Shown here piece after piece: positions 27,261-40,661 of a stretch of 64,000 nt of DNA (position 1 is its first letter; every line of letters begins with the position of its first letter). The translations under genes were made by a program, and so were the position numbers. The notes under the pieces are model-generated. The model was not told the origin of the DNA. It was given only the letters and a program-made list of their open reading frames with translations, and searched no databases. The stretch lies in contig BLSF01000095.1 in assembly GCA_012862575.1 (NCBI GenBank), forward strand, positions 43,551 through 107,550. The letters run 5' to 3'. This DNA comes from Parietichytrium sp. I65-24A (taxonomy: Eukaryota > Sar > Bigyra > Thraustochytrida > Thraustochytriidae).

Positions 27261-27356
27261 AAGAACCGCAACAGCACTAACAGCACACATCCAACTTGTG
27301 GGGGAGAGAATCCTCGCAGATACCGTACCCTCAAGAGTGAGGCGTCAGCTGCGGGG

Positions 27357-27395
<39 letters not shown>

Positions 27396-27423
27396 AGAGA
27401 GAGAGAGTATAGAGAGGGAGAAG
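26057..27423. promoter_or_regulatory. Divergent region CobW / DCAF1, rich in simple repeats
   Basis: This is 1.37 kb between divergent starts. Next to the CobW start is a CACAGTCACCACAGTCCCCACAATTCCCAC repeat (about 26099-26140). Further on come ATGAATGGATATGAATGGAT and GATTGGATGATTGGATG runs (26686-26745), a (GA)n tract at about 27221-27256, and a second purine tract (27360-27423) that runs directly into the DCAF1 ATG. The frame open upstream of DCAF1 has only a GTG start at 27298 and encodes Arg-Glu repeats from the GA tract, so it is treated as leader. Confidence 0.6.
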
Positions 27424-30400
27424 ATGGAGGACGATGAAGCAAGTAGCGGCGGTGCGCTGGAGGAGCGTCTGGCGGACCTTGCGGGCAGGTGCGCAATATT
27501 GGCGAGTATCTCGACGTTCGACCTTGGGAGCAGGCTGGACATGGAGGACGAGACGGTGCTGGACGCGCTGAAAGCGATGCAGGAGGCGGCGGAGCTGCTG
27601 GAGGAACTGGAGAATGAGTACCTGAACGCGGAAGATTGCAGCCCGATGGTGGATGATCGGGAAAAGTATGGGATCGGAGAAGCAATGGCTCTGCTGTCGA
27701 TGACGGGTAGCATGGACTGGGTCCAGGCGCTGAAAACGATGCTGTCGGTGGAGTCGCCGAGCGTGAGCCAGAACATTGATGTAAAGTGCGTGGCGCTGCA
27801 CTTTTTGCAAGCTGCTTTCGAGCCTGTGGCGGGAACCAACTCTCCAATGCTCGGGTTTTTGGAAGACGTGGTGTCTTTCCAGGTGCTTGTTGCTTACGCA
27901 TTTGGAGATGCTTTTCTGGTCACAGAAAAGCAGTTGCAAGCGGGAGACAAGAAGGAATCCTCCTCAAAGCGGAAGCTGCATAACAAGGTGGAGGACCCCC
28001 TTGCGCTCCAGGTTTGCAAGTGGTGGAAGGATTCGCCAGAAAAGGCTAAACTACTGCGTCAGCGCGCAACGTCTTTATTATCTGTGTTTGTGTTTTTGGA
28101 GAAGTCTGCCGGGGAGTATTTGATGAATCAGCATGTGGAAAAAGGCTTGCACACCTCAATGCCTCGTGTGATACTCAATCGTATGAAGCGGGAGCTGTGG
28201 CCGGAATACCAAGAGGCAACCGGCATTGCCTCCAGCGCAGACAAATCCGCTGCACCTGGAAGGCATGGCAAAAGTTCAAAAAGCACTAGGCAGAAACAAA
28301 GCGGCGTCAGCTCCTCGAGCAGTAGTTCTATCGTTCCGACAAGTGCGAACGCACCCCTCAACTTTTCCGCCAAGAAGCCTAGCAGCAGCAAGCAAGCCCA
28401 GTTCAGCGCGAGCAGTACAGCAAAGAAAATCCACGCAAAGGACAAACAGGAGGCTAGCAAGAGATCGCGGTCCACATCAGACTCCGGGTATAAGAGCACA
28501 CAACTTCGCCGGTACAATAAAGAGTTGTGTTTCTGCTTGCGACTTTTGGAGAAAATGTCCGAGCGGAGTATATCTGTGACAAGGCCAATTTTGCAGGAGA
28601 ATGGGCTCAAGTTCTTCTTTCAAATGATTCACCAGACGAACAGGGATGATGTCTTCTTGATCAGTGAAGCGCTGGTGCTTGTTTCCAACCTGTGTATGCA
28701 TCAAAAGATCGCCAATGACTTTATGGACCGCAATGGGGTCAAACTACTACTCGAGCTGGCGCGAACGTCGAAGCGCCCTTTCTATTTGCTGCCGGGAATA
28801 TCCTACTGCATTTCGTGTCTCTCAACAACGGTTATTCATCGGATATGCCAGCTTCCTTTTCAGCTCTTTCGGCAGGTAAACACGTTCATGCTCGAGCTGC
28901 TCGAAAATGATCAAGATATTGTTCAAATGTCTGCGATGGTGTACTGGGGAGAGGCTTTAAAATGCCCAATGAATCTCAAGATGTTCGACAGTTTTGACGG
29001 AGCCTCGCTGCTCTTGAATTGTCTGGCGAGTCCTGTGCCTTCCCGCTTTTCAGTTAAAACAGAGCTCTTTGTGAAGCACATTGTATACACGTTGGAAGTT
29101 TATATGCGTGCTCACGTTGCCGTTGCAGCTCATCTCGTTCAGCTGGACGTCGCCCACTCGCAAAGGACCAAGGACGGACAGCACCTTGCTGCAAACTCGC
29201 GCATACGAAGTGATAGTCTTGGCAGCTTGAGCAGCATTGGAAGCTCCGCTAGCCGGTCTACCACACGAGCAAAGCTTGCTGAAGACAAGCCAATGGATAC
29301 CGATCTAATTGCCACTGAGAGCAACATGGCTTTCTTGCAGTCCCACCGCGACGTAGCCATGCGCATCTTGACGCGCTCAAAGTGGAAGCCTGTCGAAACT
29401 ATTTTGGCTTACAAGGTACCTCGTGATAATGATGAGGATGGCGCAGCGGAGAGTGAGGGGTCCAAGTCGAAGAAAGGGGACTCTAACCCAGATTTGAGCG
29501 GCAATCAAGGCTTATCCACCACGTCGGCGGTACAATCCTCGCAAAACGCCAACAGCGACATTGCCGCTGGTGCCGGGCAGCAGGGGGGAGGCTCTCACCT
29601 TACAGAGCAGTTTCCCGCGCTTGTCATGCTATTGCAAATTGTTCATAGCACTGCTGGCATCGAGGTGCCGAGATCTTACCTGTCAGACACTGCTGTTGCC
29701 GCTCTCCTGATTCTTAGGGTGGTCACCCTACTTCCTTACACGTACAAGATCTTGTGCGAATGCACCGTCCCCACTCTGTTTTCGCCGCTGTCCGGAGAGT
29801 TCGCCGATAGCTGGGCCTTTGGAGATATGGAGGAAGAAGAGAGTTTGCAAGGAATCACGGTTCTCTTCATGGCAGTTGGGGTTTCGGAGGGTCGGGAAGC
29901 ACAGTTAATTCAAGCCACTCTCGAGGTCATATGTAATTGCTGCTCGCCAACGATGGGAGAAGACCGAGCCCAGCGGCCTGTGCGCAAACTAGCCCGCCAC
30001 AACAATGCCATTATGACCCTGCTTGCTCTTTTGAGGTATAACGAAACGCCACGATACGCAGACAGCATTCGTTATTTGGCTTGCCTCGCACTACACGGGC
30101 TCGCAAATGACCATCACGTCGCCCAAGTCTTGGAGACCTTAAATGTGACCCAAGCGCTTACTAAAATCGCGAGGTCGGAACCCGTGCTGTTCGAAAACAA
30201 GAGAATACATAAGAAACTCCGTCGAGAAGCCCTAAAACTGATCGAGCACATCTCAGACGCGAGTAAAACTGCCAATACGCAAAATATAATCGGAGATGTT
30301 GCTGATGCTACGAATAAGAGGTTGCTGAGAAATGCGATCGTGGAGAGAACGCAGATTAACTTTGATTCTCGTGAGCTGCTAGGACTCATTAAGGACCATC

Positions 30401-32436
30401 TTTTTGATCGAGGCTATGTGGCTGCTGCAAACGCGCTTGATTCGGAATTGCAGCAAAAACTAGGGAACTGTGGGGCGGAGGATTTGAGCAAGTCCAAGTC
30501 AAAGAAATTTCAGTGGCCGTCCGAATATTTAAAAGGGGTGAAATCGACAAAGAAGTTTGGCTTTGTGCGGGCTAAAGGATCTTCACTCGCCGAACACGAG
30601 TTGGAGCCCCTGAAGCTACAGCGAGACGAGACCAAAAGCAGTTTGCAACACCGAGAACGTGTTCTTGCAGCTGGCGCCCGGGAGCCCAGCCCTTTGGCAC
30701 AGACGTCTTGGCCGCTAGATCCTCGCGGGTCAAAGCTGCCGCTCACAACCCCGACGCCGAATAGGAAGCGTCACATCAACCCAGTGGAAGAGCTCCTATC
30801 TTCCAGCAAACGACGGAAATTAAACGCAAATGCAGCAACTCCTGACCGTCCCGCAGATTTATCGAAAACCCCGTCATCTGCCGGAATGCGCCTTTTGCAC
30901 TCGAGCTCTGGACAGTGTACCGGGCTGGAAAGGATCGTCACAGACTACCTGCGCGAGCAACATCGCCGGTGTTTGGACCCAGTGAGCATTGTGCCGCCTT
31001 TTTCACTGTCGGATAAGCAACACCAATGTTCTACAACAATTCCATCGCAACGGACCAGCGGACCACAGTCAAACTTGTTCGCTCGACTTTTGCAGCGAGA
31101 GCTCAATGGCACCAGGCATGGCTGCATCGGTGGTCGAACACAAGATCTTCGTCTCTTGCAGGGCCGCTGCAAGTGTGTCCGAACGTTTCGAAACAATGAG
31201 AGTAGTATTGAAGGCGTAAACGACTCGGAGGCCCTTGAGACCTACACAGCGGTCAGCTTTTTACACCATTCTTCGGACTATGAAGACCTGTTGTTGGGCA
31301 CAAGGTCGGGCGATCTCGTTCTTCGGAATACTCACAGCGGCCAGACATTTGCAAAGTGGCACATCTCGGACAAACCGGTCAGGTCGATCTCTGTATCTCC
31401 TGATGGAAGTAGAGTCCTCACTTGTTCCCCTGATGCAGGGTCAATGCAACTGTCGAAGTTCCCCAAATCTGTCGTTGTTGAGTATGGTACAGATGGTTAC
31501 GAAAGGATGTATGATTTTGGAACCACCAATCGCAACCGCGCGGAGGACGAGACTGTGTTACTTTGGGAGGCACATAATATCAAGGAGGTTGAGATGGACC
31601 GCTTTGGCAAACGCGCGGTTGCCACTCTGCTGAACGGCGAGCACGACGGTCATGAAATTCCCGCGGTTGTTTATGATCTAGAAACGGGGGAGGCCATTAC
31701 CAAGCTCGTGGACAATAAGCTCTCGAGTCGCTACTATCAGCACAGGGCATGCTTCACTCCTCATGGTAACAGCATCGTTCTTCACGATGGGTTGTTGTGG
31801 GACGTTCGGTCTCGAAAGGTTATTCACAAGTTCGATAAACTCTCAGAGTTCGGCTATTGTGCCTTCAAGCCGGACGGAACCCAGGTCACCATTGATGCGT
31901 CAGTTTGGGACTTGAGAACCTACAAATTGTTCGCCACTTGCCTCGCCTTTGAGTCGTCCAGAGTCATGTTCGACAGCGAAAGCTCCGTTGCTTACAGTCA
32001 TCGAGTGGACGCAGGCCCTGAAGAGGCAGAGAAAGCCTCTTCTTACCATGTCGTGGATGCCTCGGATTACTCTACGATCACGACCGTGGGAGTGGAGCCC
32101 TATGGGATTGAAACGATGGCGTTGAATCCAAGTGGTCAAAAACTCGCCCTGGTAATGGAGAGATCTCTTCTTGTTGACGAGGAAGAGTGGCAAGAGCGGC
32201 AAGGGCTGTGCAGATTGTACGAGATTGGGCGCGTGTGGAACATTGACGAAACGGATATGCAAGATGAGGAGGACGACGAAGACGACGACGATGATGATGA
32301 CGAAGACGATGATGACGACGAGGACGACGACGAGGACGATGACGAGAATGTCATGGACAGCGATCTCTCGTTTTCATCAAGTGGGGATGAGATGGGACCT
32401 TTTGGGCACTATCTCGATCCTGTGGGTTTGTATTAA
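27424..32436 (+). CDS. DCAF1: DDB1- and CUL4-associated factor 1 (VprBP homologue)
   Basis: This is a 1,670-residue protein with its ATG at 27424. DCAF1 is the substrate receptor of CRL4 ubiquitin ligase. The N-terminal half is helical armadillo-like repeats interrupted by Ser/Lys-rich linkers (about 275-360). A LisH motif lies near 982-1015 (ELLGLIKDHLFDRGYVAAANAL). The C-terminal WD40 propeller (about 1270-1605) has the two family boxes LLWDVRSRKVIHKF (about 1458) and VWDLRTYKLFATC (about 1495), which bear the WDxR signatures used to dock on DDB1. The protein ends with an Asp/Glu tail (about 1613-1643), as in animal and plant DCAF1. The 5.0-kb frame is uninterrupted, so no intron is needed. 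Confidence 0.96.
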   Translation: MEDDEASSGGALEERLADLAGRCAILASISTFDLGSRLDMEDETVLDALKAMQEAAELLEELENEYLNAEDCSPMVDDREKYGIGEAMALLSMTGSMDWVQALKTMLSVESPSVSQNIDVKCVALHFLQAAFEPVAGTNSPMLGFLEDVVSFQVLVAYAFGDAFLVTEKQLQAGDKKESSSKRKLHNKVEDPLALQVCKWWKDSPEKAKLLRQRATSLLSVFVFLEKSAGEYLMNQHVEKGLHTSMPRVILNRMKRELWPEYQEATGIASSADKSAAPGRHGKSSKSTRQKQSGVSSSSSSSIVPTSANAPLNFSAKKPSSSKQAQFSASSTAKKIHAKDKQEASKRSRSTSDSGYKSTQLRRYNKELCFCLRLLEKMSERSISVTRPILQENGLKFFFQMIHQTNRDDVFLISEALVLVSNLCMHQKIANDFMDRNGVKLLLELARTSKRPFYLLPGISYCISCLSTTVIHRICQLPFQLFRQVNTFMLELLENDQDIVQMSAMVYWGEALKCPMNLKMFDSFDGASLLLNCLASPVPSRFSVKTELFVKHIVYTLEVYMRAHVAVAAHLVQLDVAHSQRTKDGQHLAANSRIRSDSLGSLSSIGSSASRSTTRAKLAEDKPMDTDLIATESNMAFLQSHRDVAMRILTRSKWKPVETILAYKVPRDNDEDGAAESEGSKSKKGDSNPDLSGNQGLSTTSAVQSSQNANSDIAAGAGQQGGGSHLTEQFPALVMLLQIVHSTAGIEVPRSYLSDTAVAALLILRVVTLLPYTYKILCECTVPTLFSPLSGEFADSWAFGDMEEEESLQGITVLFMAVGVSEGREAQLIQATLEVICNCCSPTMGEDRAQRPVRKLARHNNAIMTLLALLRYNETPRYADSIRYLACLALHGLANDHHVAQVLETLNVTQALTKIARSEPVLFENKRIHKKLRREALKLIEHISDASKTANTQNIIGDVADATNKRLLRNAIVERTQINFDSRELLGLIKDHLFDRGYVAAANALDSELQQKLGNCGAEDLSKSKSKKFQWPSEYLKGVKSTKKFGFVRAKGSSLAEHELEPLKLQRDETKSSLQHRERVLAAGAREPSPLAQTSWPLDPRGSKLPLTTPTPNRKRHINPVEELLSSSKRRKLNANAATPDRPADLSKTPSSAGMRLLHSSSGQCTGLERIVTDYLREQHRRCLDPVSIVPPFSLSDKQHQCSTTIPSQRTSGPQSNLFARLLQRELNGTRHGCIGGRTQDLRLLQGRCKCVRTFRNNESSIEGVNDSEALETYTAVSFLHHSSDYEDLLLGTRSGDLVLRNTHSGQTFAKWHISDKPVRSISVSPDGSRVLTCSPDAGSMQLSKFPKSVVVEYGTDGYERMYDFGTTNRNRAEDETVLLWEAHNIKEVEMDRFGKRAVATLLNGEHDGHEIPAVVYDLETGEAITKLVDNKLSSRYYQHRACFTPHGNSIVLHDGLLWDVRSRKVIHKFDKLSEFGYCAFKPDGTQVTIDASVWDLRTYKLFATCLAFESSRVMFDSESSVAYSHRVDAGPEEAEKASSYHVVDASDYSTITTVGVEPYGIETMALNPSGQKLALVMERSLLVDEEEWQERQGLCRLYEIGRVWNIDETDMQDEEDDEDDDDDDDEDDDDDEDDDEDDDENVMDSDLSFSSSGDEMGPFGHYLDPVGLY

Positions 32437-32990: not shown

Positions 32991-35519
32991 TTACACCAAC
33001 TGAACCTGAACAGCAGCCGACTGGGAGAGCTGAGAGTCCGAGTCCTCGCGATCCCGACGGTCAAGAGAGTTAATGTCGCTCAAAGCTGGGTCCTTACGTC
33101 CAGAGTGCTGAGGCATACGGCCCTTCACAGCTCTCTTGAAGCCAAGGAGTACGTAGAGCACCACGACCAACAAGATGAAGTCGAACAGCGCAAACACAAG
33201 CGCTGCGATCGCTACTGGGCTCGGGGTGGAGGAGGAGCTTTCGTCAGTTGTGGTGGCAGTCGCGGTGGAGGCCTCCTCTAGTGTAGCCAGGCGCTCTTCG
33301 ATCGCCTTGCGGAAGTATGACTGGTAGTTACCTCTCTTAAAGCTGAGCACGTTGGCGTCTTGTCCTTCCAGTGGGGTGGTAGATTCTTCAAACTCAAACT
33401 CCACCACTCCGTAACCGAGCTCGAGCGCGTCAGCTCCCGCGCGCGCGAGGGAGAGAACACTGTCTGGAAGAGCGACAAAGTTGTAAGTTGGGAGCATGTC
33501 TTGGCCCTTGTCAACAGAGCTAGAGTCGGACGATGCAGAGAGGATGAATTGAGCAAATGCCTTCAGCAAAGCTCCACTGCTTCCCATGCCGGTGAGGTCT
33601 TGGCGAATGTAAAGGTAGGATACGAGGACAATCGGCCAAGTGGCGTCGCCCTCTGCGTTGATGAGGGTGACAGAGGAAAAGTCACTGAATGCATCCGCTG
33701 GCCAGCCGGAGTAGCTACTTCCAGCCGCACGGATACTTGCCTCGGTCGGGGTCACGGATTTGCCATTGGCGTTGATCAAAGTTACCGGCTGAACGTGAGT
33801 TGGAAAGCCGTGGCTGACGGACAAATACCCAATGGAGTACTCGTTGGACTCAACGTAGCTCTGAACACCTCCGGAACCCTGAGCGATTTCGGAATTGCAG
33901 CTACTGCTGGTGTCACATGGCCAGTCGATGAGAGATCCGGAAAGTGAGCTTGGCCACTCAGATGGGCAAGCAGCATTCAAAAATCCGGTGACTCCCGAGG
34001 TACTGCTAGAGCCGAGCTTGCGGTGCACAGTGAGGATCTCCTTATCGACGTTCTTAATCCAATCATTGCGACCGTCGGTGGCGAGCTCGCTCCACTTGGT
34101 GATCTTTCCGTTAAAGATCTTTGCAAGTTGGCAGGCCTCCAGAACAAGCTCCTCGTCCAAACCCTCAGGAATGTTGAAGTAAAAGTCCACAGCGCCAAAG
34201 CCGAATGGGAGCTGTGCGATTTTGTGGTTGTGGCGGGTCAAGGTAGAAAACATGTCCGCGGTAAGAGGGATGTCTCCAGAGCCAAACTGGCTTACCGGGA
34301 GGAAGCTGCTTGCCTCGTTTCCAACAAATTCCTTTTGCCCAGAGCCAGAGCCGATACCGCGGTAAGTCATCTTGAGCGGAACGCGAGCCATGCCCTCAAA
34401 CATACTCATGATTTCATAAAAGTAATACTCTGGGTTGGTGGTCCCCGATCCGTGCAACACGATCGTCGGGTTGGAGTAGATGTCACTGCTCTCCACAAAG
34501 GCCTCCACGGTCTTGATGATGTTGTGCTTGCTCTTGTAAATTTCTTTGTTGAGTTCCACGAGCTCTTGACCTCCAAAGGTGTACACAGTGTTGCCGAGAC
34601 TAACGGCATCAAAGCGATGGCGCTTAGTGTCCATCTCTCCACCAAAGTGCCAGGTCTTGGACTCTGGGTTGAAGATTTCGATACGCTCAGAAAGGGTGTT
34701 GTTGGCGGTCTCTCCACCAAACACGTAAATCTTGCCGTCCAAAACAGCAGTTGCAAGATCTCCGCGTCCTGCCTCGAGAGGATATTCAAAGGTCTCCCAC
34801 GAGGTGCCATCAAACACCTCAATGCTGCTGAGTGGCTGGACGTTCGCATCGAACCCTCCGATGACGATGACTTTGTCCTCAAACACTTCGTCGCGACAGT
34901 CCCCGCGCAAGGTTCCCATGGCAGGCCCGTCATTGGAGAGCGAACCGTTGCTCAGGAGAACCCATGTCTCGGTAGAGAGCTGGTAGTCCTTGCTTGGCCA
35001 GTATCCTCCCGTAAAGTAAATTGTGCCGTCCAAGTTGAATGCCACTCCATCAGTAACTCCCGCCGTAATCGAGGAACCCAGCGTTGACCAGGTCTCCGTC
35101 TCGAGATCAAGAACGTCAATCGTCAGTGCCTGAGTGCCTTCCTGTGGCCCCTCGCCACCGAACACATAAAGCTTGTTGTCGCGCAGAGCGACCGAATGGC
35201 GGTACCTTCCAGTAGGCATGGTATTGGACAGCGACTCGTACGTATCCGTCTCCGGGTAGTACACGAGCGCCACATTGCTGATATCCGTGCATCCGGCAGT
35301 GCCGTCCTGTGTATCGGCCTTGCACCCTCCGACAATGACGATCCTTTCAGAGTCCACAGCGGTCGCGGTCATGTCACTGAGCGGGTTCGGCAAGTCATTT
35401 CGCGTCTCGAACACGTGCTCCAGCGGCTGCACAAAGTACGACACATTCGTCGCTCGCAGTGCTGCCTCTGCGCCCACTGCGCCCAGCGCTCCCGCCAACG
35501 CCAGTCTCTTGGCCCACAT
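32991..35519 (-). CDS. Secreted/anchored Kelch-repeat + PstS-like phosphate-binding protein with TM tail
   Basis: This 842-residue protein has its ATG at 35517-35519 (upstream codons offer only TTG). A signal peptide (1-21, basic then Leu/Ala-rich, ending GAEAALRA) leads to six Kelch-type blades at about 50-320. Their strands are recognisable as IVIVGGC, LYVFGGE, IYFTGGY, VIVIGGF, IYVFGGE and VYTFGGQ. A PstS/PBP-II domain follows at about 345-735 with the phosphate loops GSGTTNP and YRGIGSGSG, and FNGKITKWSEL as in bacterial PstS. A polar Thr/Ser linker, one membrane helix (about 768-792) and a charged cytosolic tail of about 50 residues complete it. It is probably an extracellular phosphate-sensing or capturing receptor. 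No ABC permease is nearby, and in eukaryotes PstS domains have no Pst transporter partner, so the role is inference. Confidence 0.92.
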   Translation of the reverse strand: MWAKRLALAGALGAVGAEAALRATNVSYFVQPLEHVFETRNDLPNPLSDMTATAVDSERIVIVGGCKADTQDGTAGCTDISNVALVYYPETDTYESLSNTMPTGRYRHSVALRDNKLYVFGGEGPQEGTQALTIDVLDLETETWSTLGSSITAGVTDGVAFNLDGTIYFTGGYWPSKDYQLSTETWVLLSNGSLSNDGPAMGTLRGDCRDEVFEDKVIVIGGFDANVQPLSSIEVFDGTSWETFEYPLEAGRGDLATAVLDGKIYVFGGETANNTLSERIEIFNPESKTWHFGGEMDTKRHRFDAVSLGNTVYTFGGQELVELNKEIYKSKHNIIKTVEAFVESSDIYSNPTIVLHGSGTTNPEYYFYEIMSMFEGMARVPLKMTYRGIGSGSGQKEFVGNEASSFLPVSQFGSGDIPLTADMFSTLTRHNHKIAQLPFGFGAVDFYFNIPEGLDEELVLEACQLAKIFNGKITKWSELATDGRNDWIKNVDKEILTVHRKLGSSSTSGVTGFLNAACPSEWPSSLSGSLIDWPCDTSSSCNSEIAQGSGGVQSYVESNEYSIGYLSVSHGFPTHVQPVTLINANGKSVTPTEASIRAAGSSYSGWPADAFSDFSSVTLINAEGDATWPIVLVSYLYIRQDLTGMGSSGALLKAFAQFILSASSDSSSVDKGQDMLPTYNFVALPDSVLSLARAGADALELGYGVVEFEFEESTTPLEGQDANVLSFKRGNYQSYFRKAIEERLATLEEASTATATTTDESSSSTPSPVAIAALVFALFDFILLVVVLYVLLGFKRAVKGRMPQHSGRKDPALSDINSLDRRDREDSDSQLSQSAAVQVQLV

Positions 35520-37326: not shown

Positions 37327-39534
37327 TTACTTGGCCACGCAGCGCTTGGACTTCCAGCGGCAGTTCGTCTTGTTGGAGTTGCAGCCGGCCTTCTTGCGGT
37401 TGGCTTTGCGGCGAGAGAAGCTGCAAAAGGCGGTCTCGCGACAGCCGATGCCTTTGAAGTATTTGCACTCTTGCAGCACGCACTGGGCCTTGGAGGAAAG
37501 TGTGGGGCAGAAAGCGCTTGGCAAACGCAAGTCGCTCGAGGTTGGGGAACGAGTGGGGAAATTGGTGGGAGCTGGAGATGGCGCCGATGTCTTGGGTGAG
37601 GTCGGCGAGCTTGTGGGTCTCAAAGTCGGGCTCGATGTGGTCGGGTGGATGGTGGGGGCGCTGGTTGGTGCGCTGGTTGGGGTGATGATTTCGCGCCCGG
37701 ATAGGTAACGGTTTTCGCAGGTCTTGTCGTCGGAGTTCCACTGACACGTTTCGGCCCGCTCCTCGCACATGGATTTTTGACTCGCGGTGGTCCCAGTGAA
37801 GGCACAAAAGGCCCTTGATTGGCATTGGCTGCCGATGAAGACGCAGTGCGCACCGAGTTGAGCGCACTCGCTCTCTGAAGTTGCTTCGCAAGGTAAGAAG
37901 CGGGCACGAATCATCGCTGCGTGTTTCTCAAGGACGTCAGCGCTTGCTGAATGTGAAGCGACATTATCCACCTCCTTGCGCCCGTCCGTAGTACTGTGGT
38001 CGTACAACTCAACATTGTCTGCTTCAGCGCCATCAAAGGTGTCTCGCAAGGACCCTGGTACCCACCGTCGCCACTCCGAGTACCTCCACTCCTTGGTCTT
38101 CACAGAAAAGCCCATGTATTCCGGGTCTCTCACAACCTTGCCGCAAGCGCCATCGTCCAGTTCTTCGCACTCACTGCAATCAACCACTTTGCCATTTTTC
38201 AGCAAGACGCAGTCCTTGCAATCAACTTGGATTTTTGAGCCAGCAAACGCCACGCACACAGGCCACACGCTGAAGGCGCTTTCTATCGGGTAAGACCAGT
38301 CATTGCCGGCAATCTGAGGTGATTTCAAAAGCACCTCCGTCGTTGCGGGTGAGGTAATCTTGGTGGGGCGGAGGAGGTGGGCAAAGCTCTGGCCCTCTAA
38401 GGAATACTTCTCGTACATGTCCAAGCCCAAAGGCACTCCAGCGAGTTCGGCGACCGTCGGGAACAGATCTATGGATTGAACAATTGTGCTTTCCTTGCTC
38501 CCTACTGGTTGGGTGCTCCTTGGGTCACGAATCCACAGCGGCGTTCGTAACGCCAAGTCGTACAAAGTTCCTTTGCACCAGCCCGCATGTTCTCCAAGCT
38601 GCCATCCGTGATCAGACGTAACGACTACGAGTGTGTCGTCCTTGAAACCATTCGCGTCTAAGTGAGAAATGAGGTCCCCGAGCAGATCGTCGACCCACTC
38701 AACACAGCCAAAGTACCCCGCGCGAAGCTGGGCAGTGGCCTCGTCGCTGAGAGGGGTGGTTCCGCCTTGATACCCAGTGCTCTGTACCTCCGAGGAGTAG
38801 TACAAATCCGCGCACATTGGGCGAAACGCCTGCCACGGTGCCGAGGCAGGAAAGTTTCGCCAGTCGGCGGTTGGGGTGCTTGGTGTCTGCTTTTTCTTCT
38901 CGAGAATCTCTTTCGGGATCCTAAATTTGGCGTGCGGACGCCGAAGCCCCACCATCATGAGCCATTTGCTAATGGACTTTCTTCTAAACATGGATATCTG
39001 ACTCTTTACCCAATCGACCGCTTTGCTATCTGTGAGTTTGTCAATCCGACTTCCCTCCTCCGCGCATACCACATCGTCACCGCAGCTGTTGCGGGTAAGT
39101 GCAGGCAATTTGTAGTAGTTGTCCACAAAATAATCATTGTTGTTGACCCAGTGAACCAGCTTGCTAGTTCCGTACACTTTGTAGTTCTTGCTCTTGAAAT
39201 ACTTGGAGAAGACGAGTTCCTTCTTGAGCATTTTCAATTCTTGGGCCGGACTGTCGTGAGTAAAGTAGTCCAAGCTCGTGGGCGCTTTAGAAGTGAACAT
39301 CGCAGCTCTGGAAGGCCCGCAGATCGCTTGTGCAGAATAAGAGTTTGTGAATTGAATAGAGCTCGCAGCAAGCGAGTCGAAGTTCGGCGTGTCCACATCT
39401 GTCGACCCATAAGACCCGGTTTCCGCTCTGAAGTCGTCCACGATGACAAGGAGCACATTCAACGGCGCGCCGCACGCTGAGCGAGCCAGAGATGCCACCA
39501 CCGATAGCAGCACGAGCGCCCGTTGTTTCCCCAT
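37327..39534 (-). CDS. Secreted sulfatase, iduronate-2-sulfatase-like, with PT stalk and Cys-rich modules
   Basis: This 735-residue protein has its ATG at 39532-39534 in front of a signal peptide (1-22, ALVLLSVVASLARSACG). The type I sulfatase domain spans about 24-545. It has the metal-binding VDD (32-34) and the formylglycine motif C72-G-P-S-R within AICGPSRAAMFT, so it should need formylglycine-generating enzyme. A further metal site is SDHGWQLGEHAGW. Overall order (LVHWVNNNDYF, VGLRRPHAKF, LWIRDP) is closest to iduronate-2-sulfatase and choline-sulfatase-like enzymes. The C-terminus has a Cys-rich module (about 548-614), a Thr/Pro stalk of repeated SAPT/SSPT units (about 617-660) and a second, similar Cys-rich module to the end. 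The likely substrate is a sulfated polysaccharide at the cell surface. Confidence 0.94.
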   Translation of the reverse strand: MGKQRALVLLSVVASLARSACGAPLNVLLVIVDDFRAETGSYGSTDVDTPNFDSLAASSIQFTNSYSAQAICGPSRAAMFTSKAPTSLDYFTHDSPAQELKMLKKELVFSKYFKSKNYKVYGTSKLVHWVNNNDYFVDNYYKLPALTRNSCGDDVVCAEEGSRIDKLTDSKAVDWVKSQISMFRRKSISKWLMMVGLRRPHAKFRIPKEILEKKKQTPSTPTADWRNFPASAPWQAFRPMCADLYYSSEVQSTGYQGGTTPLSDEATAQLRAGYFGCVEWVDDLLGDLISHLDANGFKDDTLVVVTSDHGWQLGEHAGWCKGTLYDLALRTPLWIRDPRSTQPVGSKESTIVQSIDLFPTVAELAGVPLGLDMYEKYSLEGQSFAHLLRPTKITSPATTEVLLKSPQIAGNDWSYPIESAFSVWPVCVAFAGSKIQVDCKDCVLLKNGKVVDCSECEELDDGACGKVVRDPEYMGFSVKTKEWRYSEWRRWVPGSLRDTFDGAEADNVELYDHSTTDGRKEVDNVASHSASADVLEKHAAMIRARFLPCEATSESECAQLGAHCVFIGSQCQSRAFCAFTGTTASQKSMCEERAETCQWNSDDKTCENRYLSGREIITPTSAPTSAPTIHPTTSSPTLRPTSSPTSPKTSAPSPAPTNFPTRSPTSSDLRLPSAFCPTLSSKAQCVLQECKYFKGIGCRETAFCSFSRRKANRKKAGCNSNKTNCRWKSKRCVAK

Positions 39535-40661
39535 ACTTTTTGCGTTTGATATGGCTTGCACGATCCCCTGGTTGTGGGTTTACAACATGTACGGGTGCCT
39601 GCCTTCTCGGCTGCAACCAACCACTCCGACAAGTGACGCTGCACAACCTATTAATCCTATAGCTCGCGCTTTATCTTGGCATATGGTGTGCGCCAGTGCA
39701 TCGCACATTTCTAGTTAGCCTAGTTAGCCCATTCTACATACCTGTGAAAGGGCGATGGCGCGAGCACTTTTGACCTGGTCTGGCGCACGCATTTTTAAAA
39801 CAATCTAACTTTTTCGGTAGACTGAACGGAAAGTTTGCGATGGTTGGAAGGCGAGAAAGTGAGAGCCTCACAACCGCGATGTGATACTCTGTAGTTCTGT
39901 TCTTGTCGGTTGCCATAAAAACACGGCCGATGGCTTCGCACGAGCAATCCCTCTCATATTTGGACGCATTTGAGCGTAGGATGCCACTAGCGCAACCACT
40001 CTGTGCGAGGGAACTTTGAAATATGCTCGTTGTGTACTAGTACTAGTATTTCAAGTTGGCACCTGTAGAGCTAAGTCCGTCGTTACTGATCAGATGGGTC
40101 AAAAGCTTGGCACTCTATACCTCTAGCAGCTAGAGATAGATAGAGCTATACTAGACCTTTTCAACTTTGAACTTTGAGACTCTCGGAAAAATATATCCGT
40201 TCCTTCGGAACGGATAAAGGCTGGTCAATTTGGTTCACGTTCGCGTATTTCGCAACCATTCGAGGACTGAGCTAACTAGCTAGATCACTGCAGGTTGGAC
40301 GCATTGGCAAGTGTGAATGTCTCGGATACGCTAGATGCGTTGGGTGTCGCACCAGCAGAAAGACACGAAAAGTGAAAATCTCCTCTTGGATACTTATAAA
40401 TTGTCCGCATTGTGGCAGAGGGGCGCGACTAAAAAAAAAGGAAGGATTTTGTGAGGCGTTCGACAGAAAGTTTGTACTGGAACTCGTATGGCCTGCCAAG
40501 AGCTAGACTCACAATGGTTGCTCAGGCGCGGATCAGAAGGCCTCAAAAAACAGTCATGCAATCCAAAAAATGAGAAAACAAAGAGATTAAGAAATAAAGA
40601 AGAGATAATTTCCTCACACACAGCTGTACACATTATGCTTCTGGCGTCCACTTGAAACGGC
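39535..40661. other. Intergenic region with a short perfect hairpin
   Basis: This 1.1-kb region runs from the sulfatase start to the 3' end of the LRRC45-like gene. No gene is seen. It holds the 21-base palindrome at 40195-40215, described separately, and TAGAGATAGATAGAG repeats nearby. Confidence 0.5.
40195..40215. other. Perfect 9-bp stem / 3-base loop hairpin
   Basis: ATCCGTTCC and GGAACGGAT flank a TTC loop, a perfect inverted repeat. It could be a transcript hairpin or a palindromic protein site. Nothing else fixes its role, and no gene starts or ends right beside it. Confidence 0.6.

Follow-up and report, generated by a model that had tools for sequence, protein, structure and literature searches.

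A Kelch propeller joined to a PstS-type domain on one membrane helix in Parietichytrium sp. I65-24A: a possible surface phosphate receptor or co-receptor

The sensing of external phosphate by free-living eukaryotes is poorly understood, and SPX domains are intracellular phosphate readers. The window analysed here, a stretch of 64,000 nucleotides on contig 95 of the 42.5-Mb, 172-contig assembly of Parietichytrium sp. I65-24A, contains a gene that raises the question of what a bacterial-type phosphate-binding clamp may do on a eukaryotic surface protein. The initial annotation offered three functions side by side: a phosphate sensor, a protein capturing phosphate for another transporter, or an adhesion protein. 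All three are kept below as readings, but not with equal weight, since the genome favours a receptor.

Layout and topology of the protein

The gene (positions 32,991–35,519, reverse strand) is one open frame of 842 aa from ATG to stop, with no internal stops. The earlier reading (signal peptide, six Kelch blades, PstS domain, a single helix in the membrane, short charged tail) is confirmed, the signal peptide being judged by eye. The signal-like N terminus, residues 1–20 (35,460–35,519, reverse strand, as for all parts of the gene), has a hydropathy below 1.6, and the structure model places helices at residues 2–11 and 13–22 with low confidence; the presence of a signal peptide is not firmly established. 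The 19-residue windows with a hydropathy of at least 1.6 start at positions 764–782 only and correspond to the membrane helix at residues 768–799 (33,123–33,218), which the model also predicts. Apart from these windows, the maximum within residues 26–744 is 1.14. The basic patch FKRAVKGR follows the helix, so type I topology is likely. The charged C-terminal tail of 43 residues (800–842; 32,994–33,122) is blank in Pfam at E 0.1, and the juxtamembrane stretch before the helix (residues 701–767; 33,219–33,419) contains a predicted helix at 732–756 and a Ser/Thr-rich linker.

A Pfam scan of the whole protein matched PBP_like_2 and ten models for Kelch or similar propellers and, at E 0.1, no other domain, neither a kinase nor 7tm_3; the membrane part is a single hydrophobic helix. 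The Kelch propeller, residues 20–344 (34,488–35,462), is assigned from these profiles and from six spaced GG motifs. Kelch_1 is the best model (E 1.7e-31, 107.8 bits against a cut-off of 20.1), and Kelch_6 matches at E 2.3e-26. The blade-type motifs lie at residues 64, 121, 171, 221, 268, and 316, with a spacing of 47–57, and a seventh GG at residue 293 is out of step with them. The Kelch part itself is modelled poorly, most of residues 20–215 having a pLDDT below 50 in a full-length model whose alignment contained no Kelch rows, and the assignment is therefore based on the profiles. N-glycosylation sequons are present in this part at residues 25, 191, and 273. Between residues 297 and 370 the frame is free of methionine, so that within it the PstS part would have no separate start with a signal peptide.

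The PstS domain and its phosphate site

The PstS-type domain, of the periplasmic-binding-protein (PBP) type II class, comprises residues 345–700 (33,420–34,487) and is supported by profile, fold model, and alignment. The initial annotation had pointed to segment 345–735, and there the PstS assignment withstood both a profile search and a structure prediction. PBP_like_2 matches residues 351–662 at E 1.2e-24 (87.9 bits, cut-off 27), and solved PstS chains match the PstS part at E 4.1e-24. With the segment as the query, 16 distinct solved sequences were found at E 1e-10 or better, all of them phosphate-binding or phosphate ABC proteins by name. An AlphaFold2 model of the segment (pLDDT 85.5, pTM 0.83) has the PstS fold, although its alignment consisted of 42 rows of PstS relatives from bacterial and viral contigs, so that fold and homology are not independent. 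The top Foldseek match was a PstS with bound phosphate (E 1.4e-26). In VIA-align 2 the best Z, 36.4, was obtained with PstS-1 of M. tuberculosis (2.6 Å over 320 residues), and the PstS mutant 1qui, which we take to be the E. coli protein, gave Z 33.8 (2.9 Å over 313 residues). Among the matches listed, the best one without a phosphate name, DING proteins aside, reached Z 16.1. The score for TIGR00975 was 135.2 bits, below the equivalog cut-off of 205, whereas the E. coli PstS control scored 421.4. DING proteins carry an N-terminal DINGGG signature, according to the excerpted text of their description (PMC7922408), and the string DING is missing from the entire Kelch-PstS protein.

The side-chain ligands of phosphate in E. 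coli PstS are taken here to be T10, S38, D56, R135, S139, and T141. By alignment, five of them are identical in the Kelch-PstS protein (Thr10 as T361, Ser38 as S391, Asp56 as D416, Arg135 as R500, and Ser139 as S504) and the sixth, Thr141, is replaced by serine (S506); this is the correspondence with the E. coli site that the initial annotation had proposed to check. Two further positions of the site are changed, Phe11 being N362 and Gly140 S505, and Asp137 is L502. Structures of E. coli PstS in which Asp137 is mutated to Asn, Gly, or Thr are titled as phosphate complexes. The phosphate-site columns are kept no better (5 of 8) than the other columns that are constant in 80% or more of the 42 alignment rows (43 of 83; Fisher p 0.42). 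Given the substitutions of Phe11 and Gly140 and this lack of preferential conservation, phosphate is no more than a likely ligand of the domain. Fold and phosphate-site side chains are thus common to the Kelch-PstS protein and bacterial PstS (e.g., E. coli PstS, PDB 2abh; TIGR00975). In contrast to bacterial PstS, the protein is a fusion, is membrane-anchored, scores below the TIGR00975 cut-off, and is encoded in a genome with no match to BPD_transp_1.

PstS-like folds were also found among giant-virus proteins. BFVD entries A0A0B5J011, A0A0B5JBP5, and A0A4D6EHX4 are Pandoravirus proteins with such a fold, one of them named a Ser/Thr kinase. Of the 11 viral proteins that match the fold with an E of 0.001 or lower, three bear kinase names, which hints at other receptor uses. 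Related receptor-kinase proteins occur in amoebae and their viruses. The kinase-named A0A0B5J011 (1036 residues) has a PstS-like fold in part, with a TM-score of 0.68 by query length, and differs from the Kelch-PstS protein in its kinase name, the comparison being one of fold match and name.

Genome context and origin

The initial annotation noted that no permease is near, and this holds more widely: no match to the ABC permease model BPD_transp_1 (PF00528) was found genome-wide, with 14 of 14 controls recovered, although absence is thereby not proven. Contigs 6 and 32 contain four matches to PHO4 (PiT carriers), each spanning all or almost all of the model, and SPX gave 10 matches.

PBP_like_2 gave six matches in five frames, the Kelch-PstS gene included. 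The other four frames all match 7tm_3 too, an 857-aa frame doing so below the 7tm_3 cut-off. A Pfam scan of three of these four found PBP_like_2 with 7tm_3 in each (in the 857-aa frame again below the cut-off for the latter), the fourth frame, interrupted by a run of N, lying outside the scan. Counts of large families are lower bounds: 7tm_3 gave at least 82 matches in at least 81 frames, and Kelch_1 at least 51 in at least 21 frames, of which at least six also match 7tm_3. The order Bmp, Kelch, 7tm_3 was found in all five scanned Kelch-7TM genes (L005, L006, L007, L008, and L024), that is, in L024 and in four of the six frames with both Kelch_1 and 7tm_3; the remaining two of these six, 531 aa and 524 aa long, are on contig 85. 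Among the matches listed for Bmp, 19 of 22 fall within frames that match 7tm_3 too. A scan of eleven more class C genes found Bmp in five, ANF_receptor in four, and Peripla_BP_6 in one; the last gene had none of the three. As judged from domain content, both PBP_like_2 and Kelch serve as receptor ectodomains in this genome. The order in the Kelch-PstS protein (Kelch, clamp, membrane) is the reverse of that in the Kelch GPCRs (Bmp, Kelch, membrane), and Kelch propellers and bacterial-type clamps are thus combined in more than one order within one genome.

The PstS domain sits on a very long end branch of 4.8. A tree of 46 rows, from which loci with ORFs below 280 aa, near-copies at 70% identity, and the second clamp domains of GPCRs were left out, gives neither support for nor rejection of a grouping with the GPCR clamps (p-AU 0.304). 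A quicker first tree, which included those second domains, placed it on a long branch next to the GPCR clamps and to a sequence from Anaerolineae. In a small local set, a phmmer search with the Kelch-PstS clamp recovered the clamp of the GPCR on contig 38 (E 4.4e-8). With the Kelch part, non-GPCR Kelch proteins of the same genome score better (best E 7.2e-19) than Kelch GPCRs do (best E 1.8e-7), so that the protein looks assembled from parts rather than cut from a GPCR. Truncation of a GPCR was considered and rejected: 7tm_3 is lacking, the domain order is unlike that of the Kelch GPCRs, and the match of the tail to GPCRs is weak (best E 0.013, small local set).

Recent bacterial transfer or contamination is unlikely. 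The 80 bacterial relatives, kept from 82 found by two short patterns and hence not representing all bacterial PstS, are just 24–31% identical in the best segment, and the adjoining gene is a DCAF1 homologue. Plasmid records gave 70 matches, none spanning 80% of the protein, and the five matches listed are 27–28% identical. In L031–L190, no forward-frame ORF with a length of 200 aa or more matched the Kelch part. Pattern searches for viral relatives gave 20 matches with the whole protein and 4 with the PstS segment, none of them a relative; a DNA pattern for HGxGTTNP found 12 loci and again no relative (best E 0.24), and a further search found seven loci, each on contigs found before.

The Kelch-PstS gene is separated from the next gene by 554 bases. 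The DCAF1 homologue (27,298–32,436, forward strand) is convergent with it, matches solved DCAF1 at E 1.7e-65, and has a long acidic stretch close to its end.

Receptor, carrier aid, or adhesin

On sequence grounds, the protein may be a single-pass type I surface phosphate receptor, that is, a sensor subunit or co-receptor, rather than a transporter subunit, a tentative reading whose probability we place slightly below even. The occurrence of both PBP_like_2 and Kelch on class C GPCRs of this genome tips the balance towards a receptor, and the joining of two parts known here as receptor ectodomains on one helix favours receptor or co-receptor over transporter subunit. It is proposed that the protein would face the cell exterior, that the PstS clamp would close when it binds inorganic phosphate or an anion resembling it, and that the Kelch propeller would hold a partner protein or a glycan. 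As no known signalling domain is present in the tail, closure of the clamp would be read by a partner, and the likeliest partners would be the class C GPCRs of the genome, some of which have a PstS-type clamp. Against the receptor reading stand the very absence of a signalling domain in the tail and of 7tm_3 in the protein, the domain order, which differs from that of the five scanned Kelch GPCRs, and the greater nearness of the Kelch part to non-GPCR proteins. The long branch with its undecided union, the site columns that are not better kept, and the changes of Phe11 to Asn and of Gly140 to Ser also weigh against it, as do a fold model built on PstS rows and a signal peptide that is not firm.

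Next in probability, and rather unlikely, is phosphate capture, in which the clamp would concentrate phosphate at the surface and hand it to a carrier such as PiT (PHO4). The phosphate-site residues are kept, and with no BPD_transp_1 match a capture clamp would need another carrier, for which the four PHO4 matches are at hand. However, none of these PHO4 carriers shares contig 95 with the Kelch-PstS gene, the other four PBP_like_2 frames of the genome match 7tm_3, and transfer of phosphate from a PstS clamp to a PiT carrier is not known to us. Kelch propellers serve generally as binding modules, and an adhesion or cell-wall protein, whose Kelch head or clamp would bind partner cells or glycans carrying phosphate or sulfate, is also to be considered, though we judge it less probable than capture. 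It is consistent with the closeness of the Kelch part to non-GPCR Kelch proteins and with a gene (L018:124–1482) whose Kelch protein has a single hydrophobic helix at the C terminus and lacks a binding domain. A sulfatase-family gene with a signal-like start, judged by eye, also adjoins the Kelch-PstS gene (37,327–39,579, reverse strand, 1.8 kb upstream on the same strand); at this distance and with its own frame, such linkage is weak evidence. The kept phosphate-site side chains, however, would be needless in an adhesin that uses the propeller only. Doubtful, and least probable of these readings, is a clamp that has moved from phosphate to another ligand, such as another oxyanion, a phosphonate, or a phosphoester. 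The very long branch, the changes of Phe11 to Asn, of Gly140 to Ser, and of Asp137 to Leu, and the site columns kept no better than other conserved ones would fit such a shift, but five of the side-chain ligands are identical and the sixth is a Thr-to-Ser change, and the E. coli Asp137 mutants are titled phosphate complexes.

Returning to the receptor reading, it may be extended to a eukaryote-built system for sensing external phosphate, in which class C GPCRs with PstS clamps would act with the single-pass Kelch-PstS co-receptor. We consider this extension unlikely and rank it between capture and adhesion. If true, it would mean that a bacterial transport clamp was turned into a phosphate receptor. 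In a genome whose GPCRs also bear clamps of this kind, a probable surface protein with a phosphate clamp open to direct assay offers an entry to external phosphate sensing.

Related proteins have been described. SPPG_06488 is a fungal protein from a genus that is presumably Spizellomyces. In the excerpted text of one study it is a fungal class C receptor with PBP_like_2 (PMC3251606), and PBP_like_2 class C proteins of Plasmodiophora brassicae are termed transporters by their authors in the part of the text consulted (PMC4815078). In these proteins, as far as the excerpts go, and in the L002 and L003 genes, PBP_like_2 is likewise the outer part of a membrane protein, but they have 7tm_3 where the Kelch-PstS protein has one helix and Kelch. 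No Kelch was found by Pfam in the L002 and L003 genes, and none is named for SPPG_06488 or the Plasmodiophora proteins in those excerpts. The Bmp-Kelch-7tm_3 receptors also unite Kelch with a solute-binding domain on one membrane protein, but theirs is PBP type I, in the reversed order and with seven helices, as opposed to type II with one helix; no description of their order was found in the literature searched. In the excerpted passages, a survey of social amoebae has PBP_like_2 in its abbreviation list (PMC10445921), diatom class C receptors bear other PBP domains (PMC3727952), and PstS is placed in bacteria, cyanobacteria, and phages (PMC3429862; PMC12981677). The main text of the Acanthamoeba genome paper (PMC4053784) does not contain "periplasmic", "phosphate-binding", "PBP", or "Kelch", nor does a paper on choanoflagellate GPCRs (PMC12716839) contain "Kelch", "periplasmic", or "PBP". 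No report of a Kelch-PstS-TM protein was found in the open-access literature, within which the earlier statement that this exact order is undescribed stands. Fusions of PBP_like_2 with 7tm_3 are already published, and the Kelch-PstS-TM order is, as far as searched, apparently unreported; it is a variant of a known arrangement, in which surface proteins of eukaryotes carry solute-binding domains of bacterial type.

Several other genes of the assembly (G000) deserve mention. A 5583-aa frame on contig 66 (8,562–22,499) has four matches to the PfaA model, in what is presumably its ketosynthase region, all below the cut-off, as are all 13 matches to this model genome-wide. L021 and L022 are class C GPCRs with TIG, Bmp, and 7tm_3, TIG being above the cut-off in L022 only. 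A cluster of PstS-type class C GPCRs lies on contig 10 (290,500–308,000; L001 and L002), the L001 genes being interrupted by N. In the two clamps read in L002 Arg135 is Gln, and in addition Asp56 is Glu in one and Thr10 is Ser in the other, so that their ligand may differ. The GPCR on contig 38 (L003:949–4344) has two PBP_like_2 matches, and its first clamp keeps Thr10, Phe11, Ser38, Asp56, Arg135, Ser139, Gly140, and Thr141, with Asp137 as Glu; these residues make this receptor a candidate partner of the Kelch-PstS protein and the leading candidate for a GPCR that senses phosphate.
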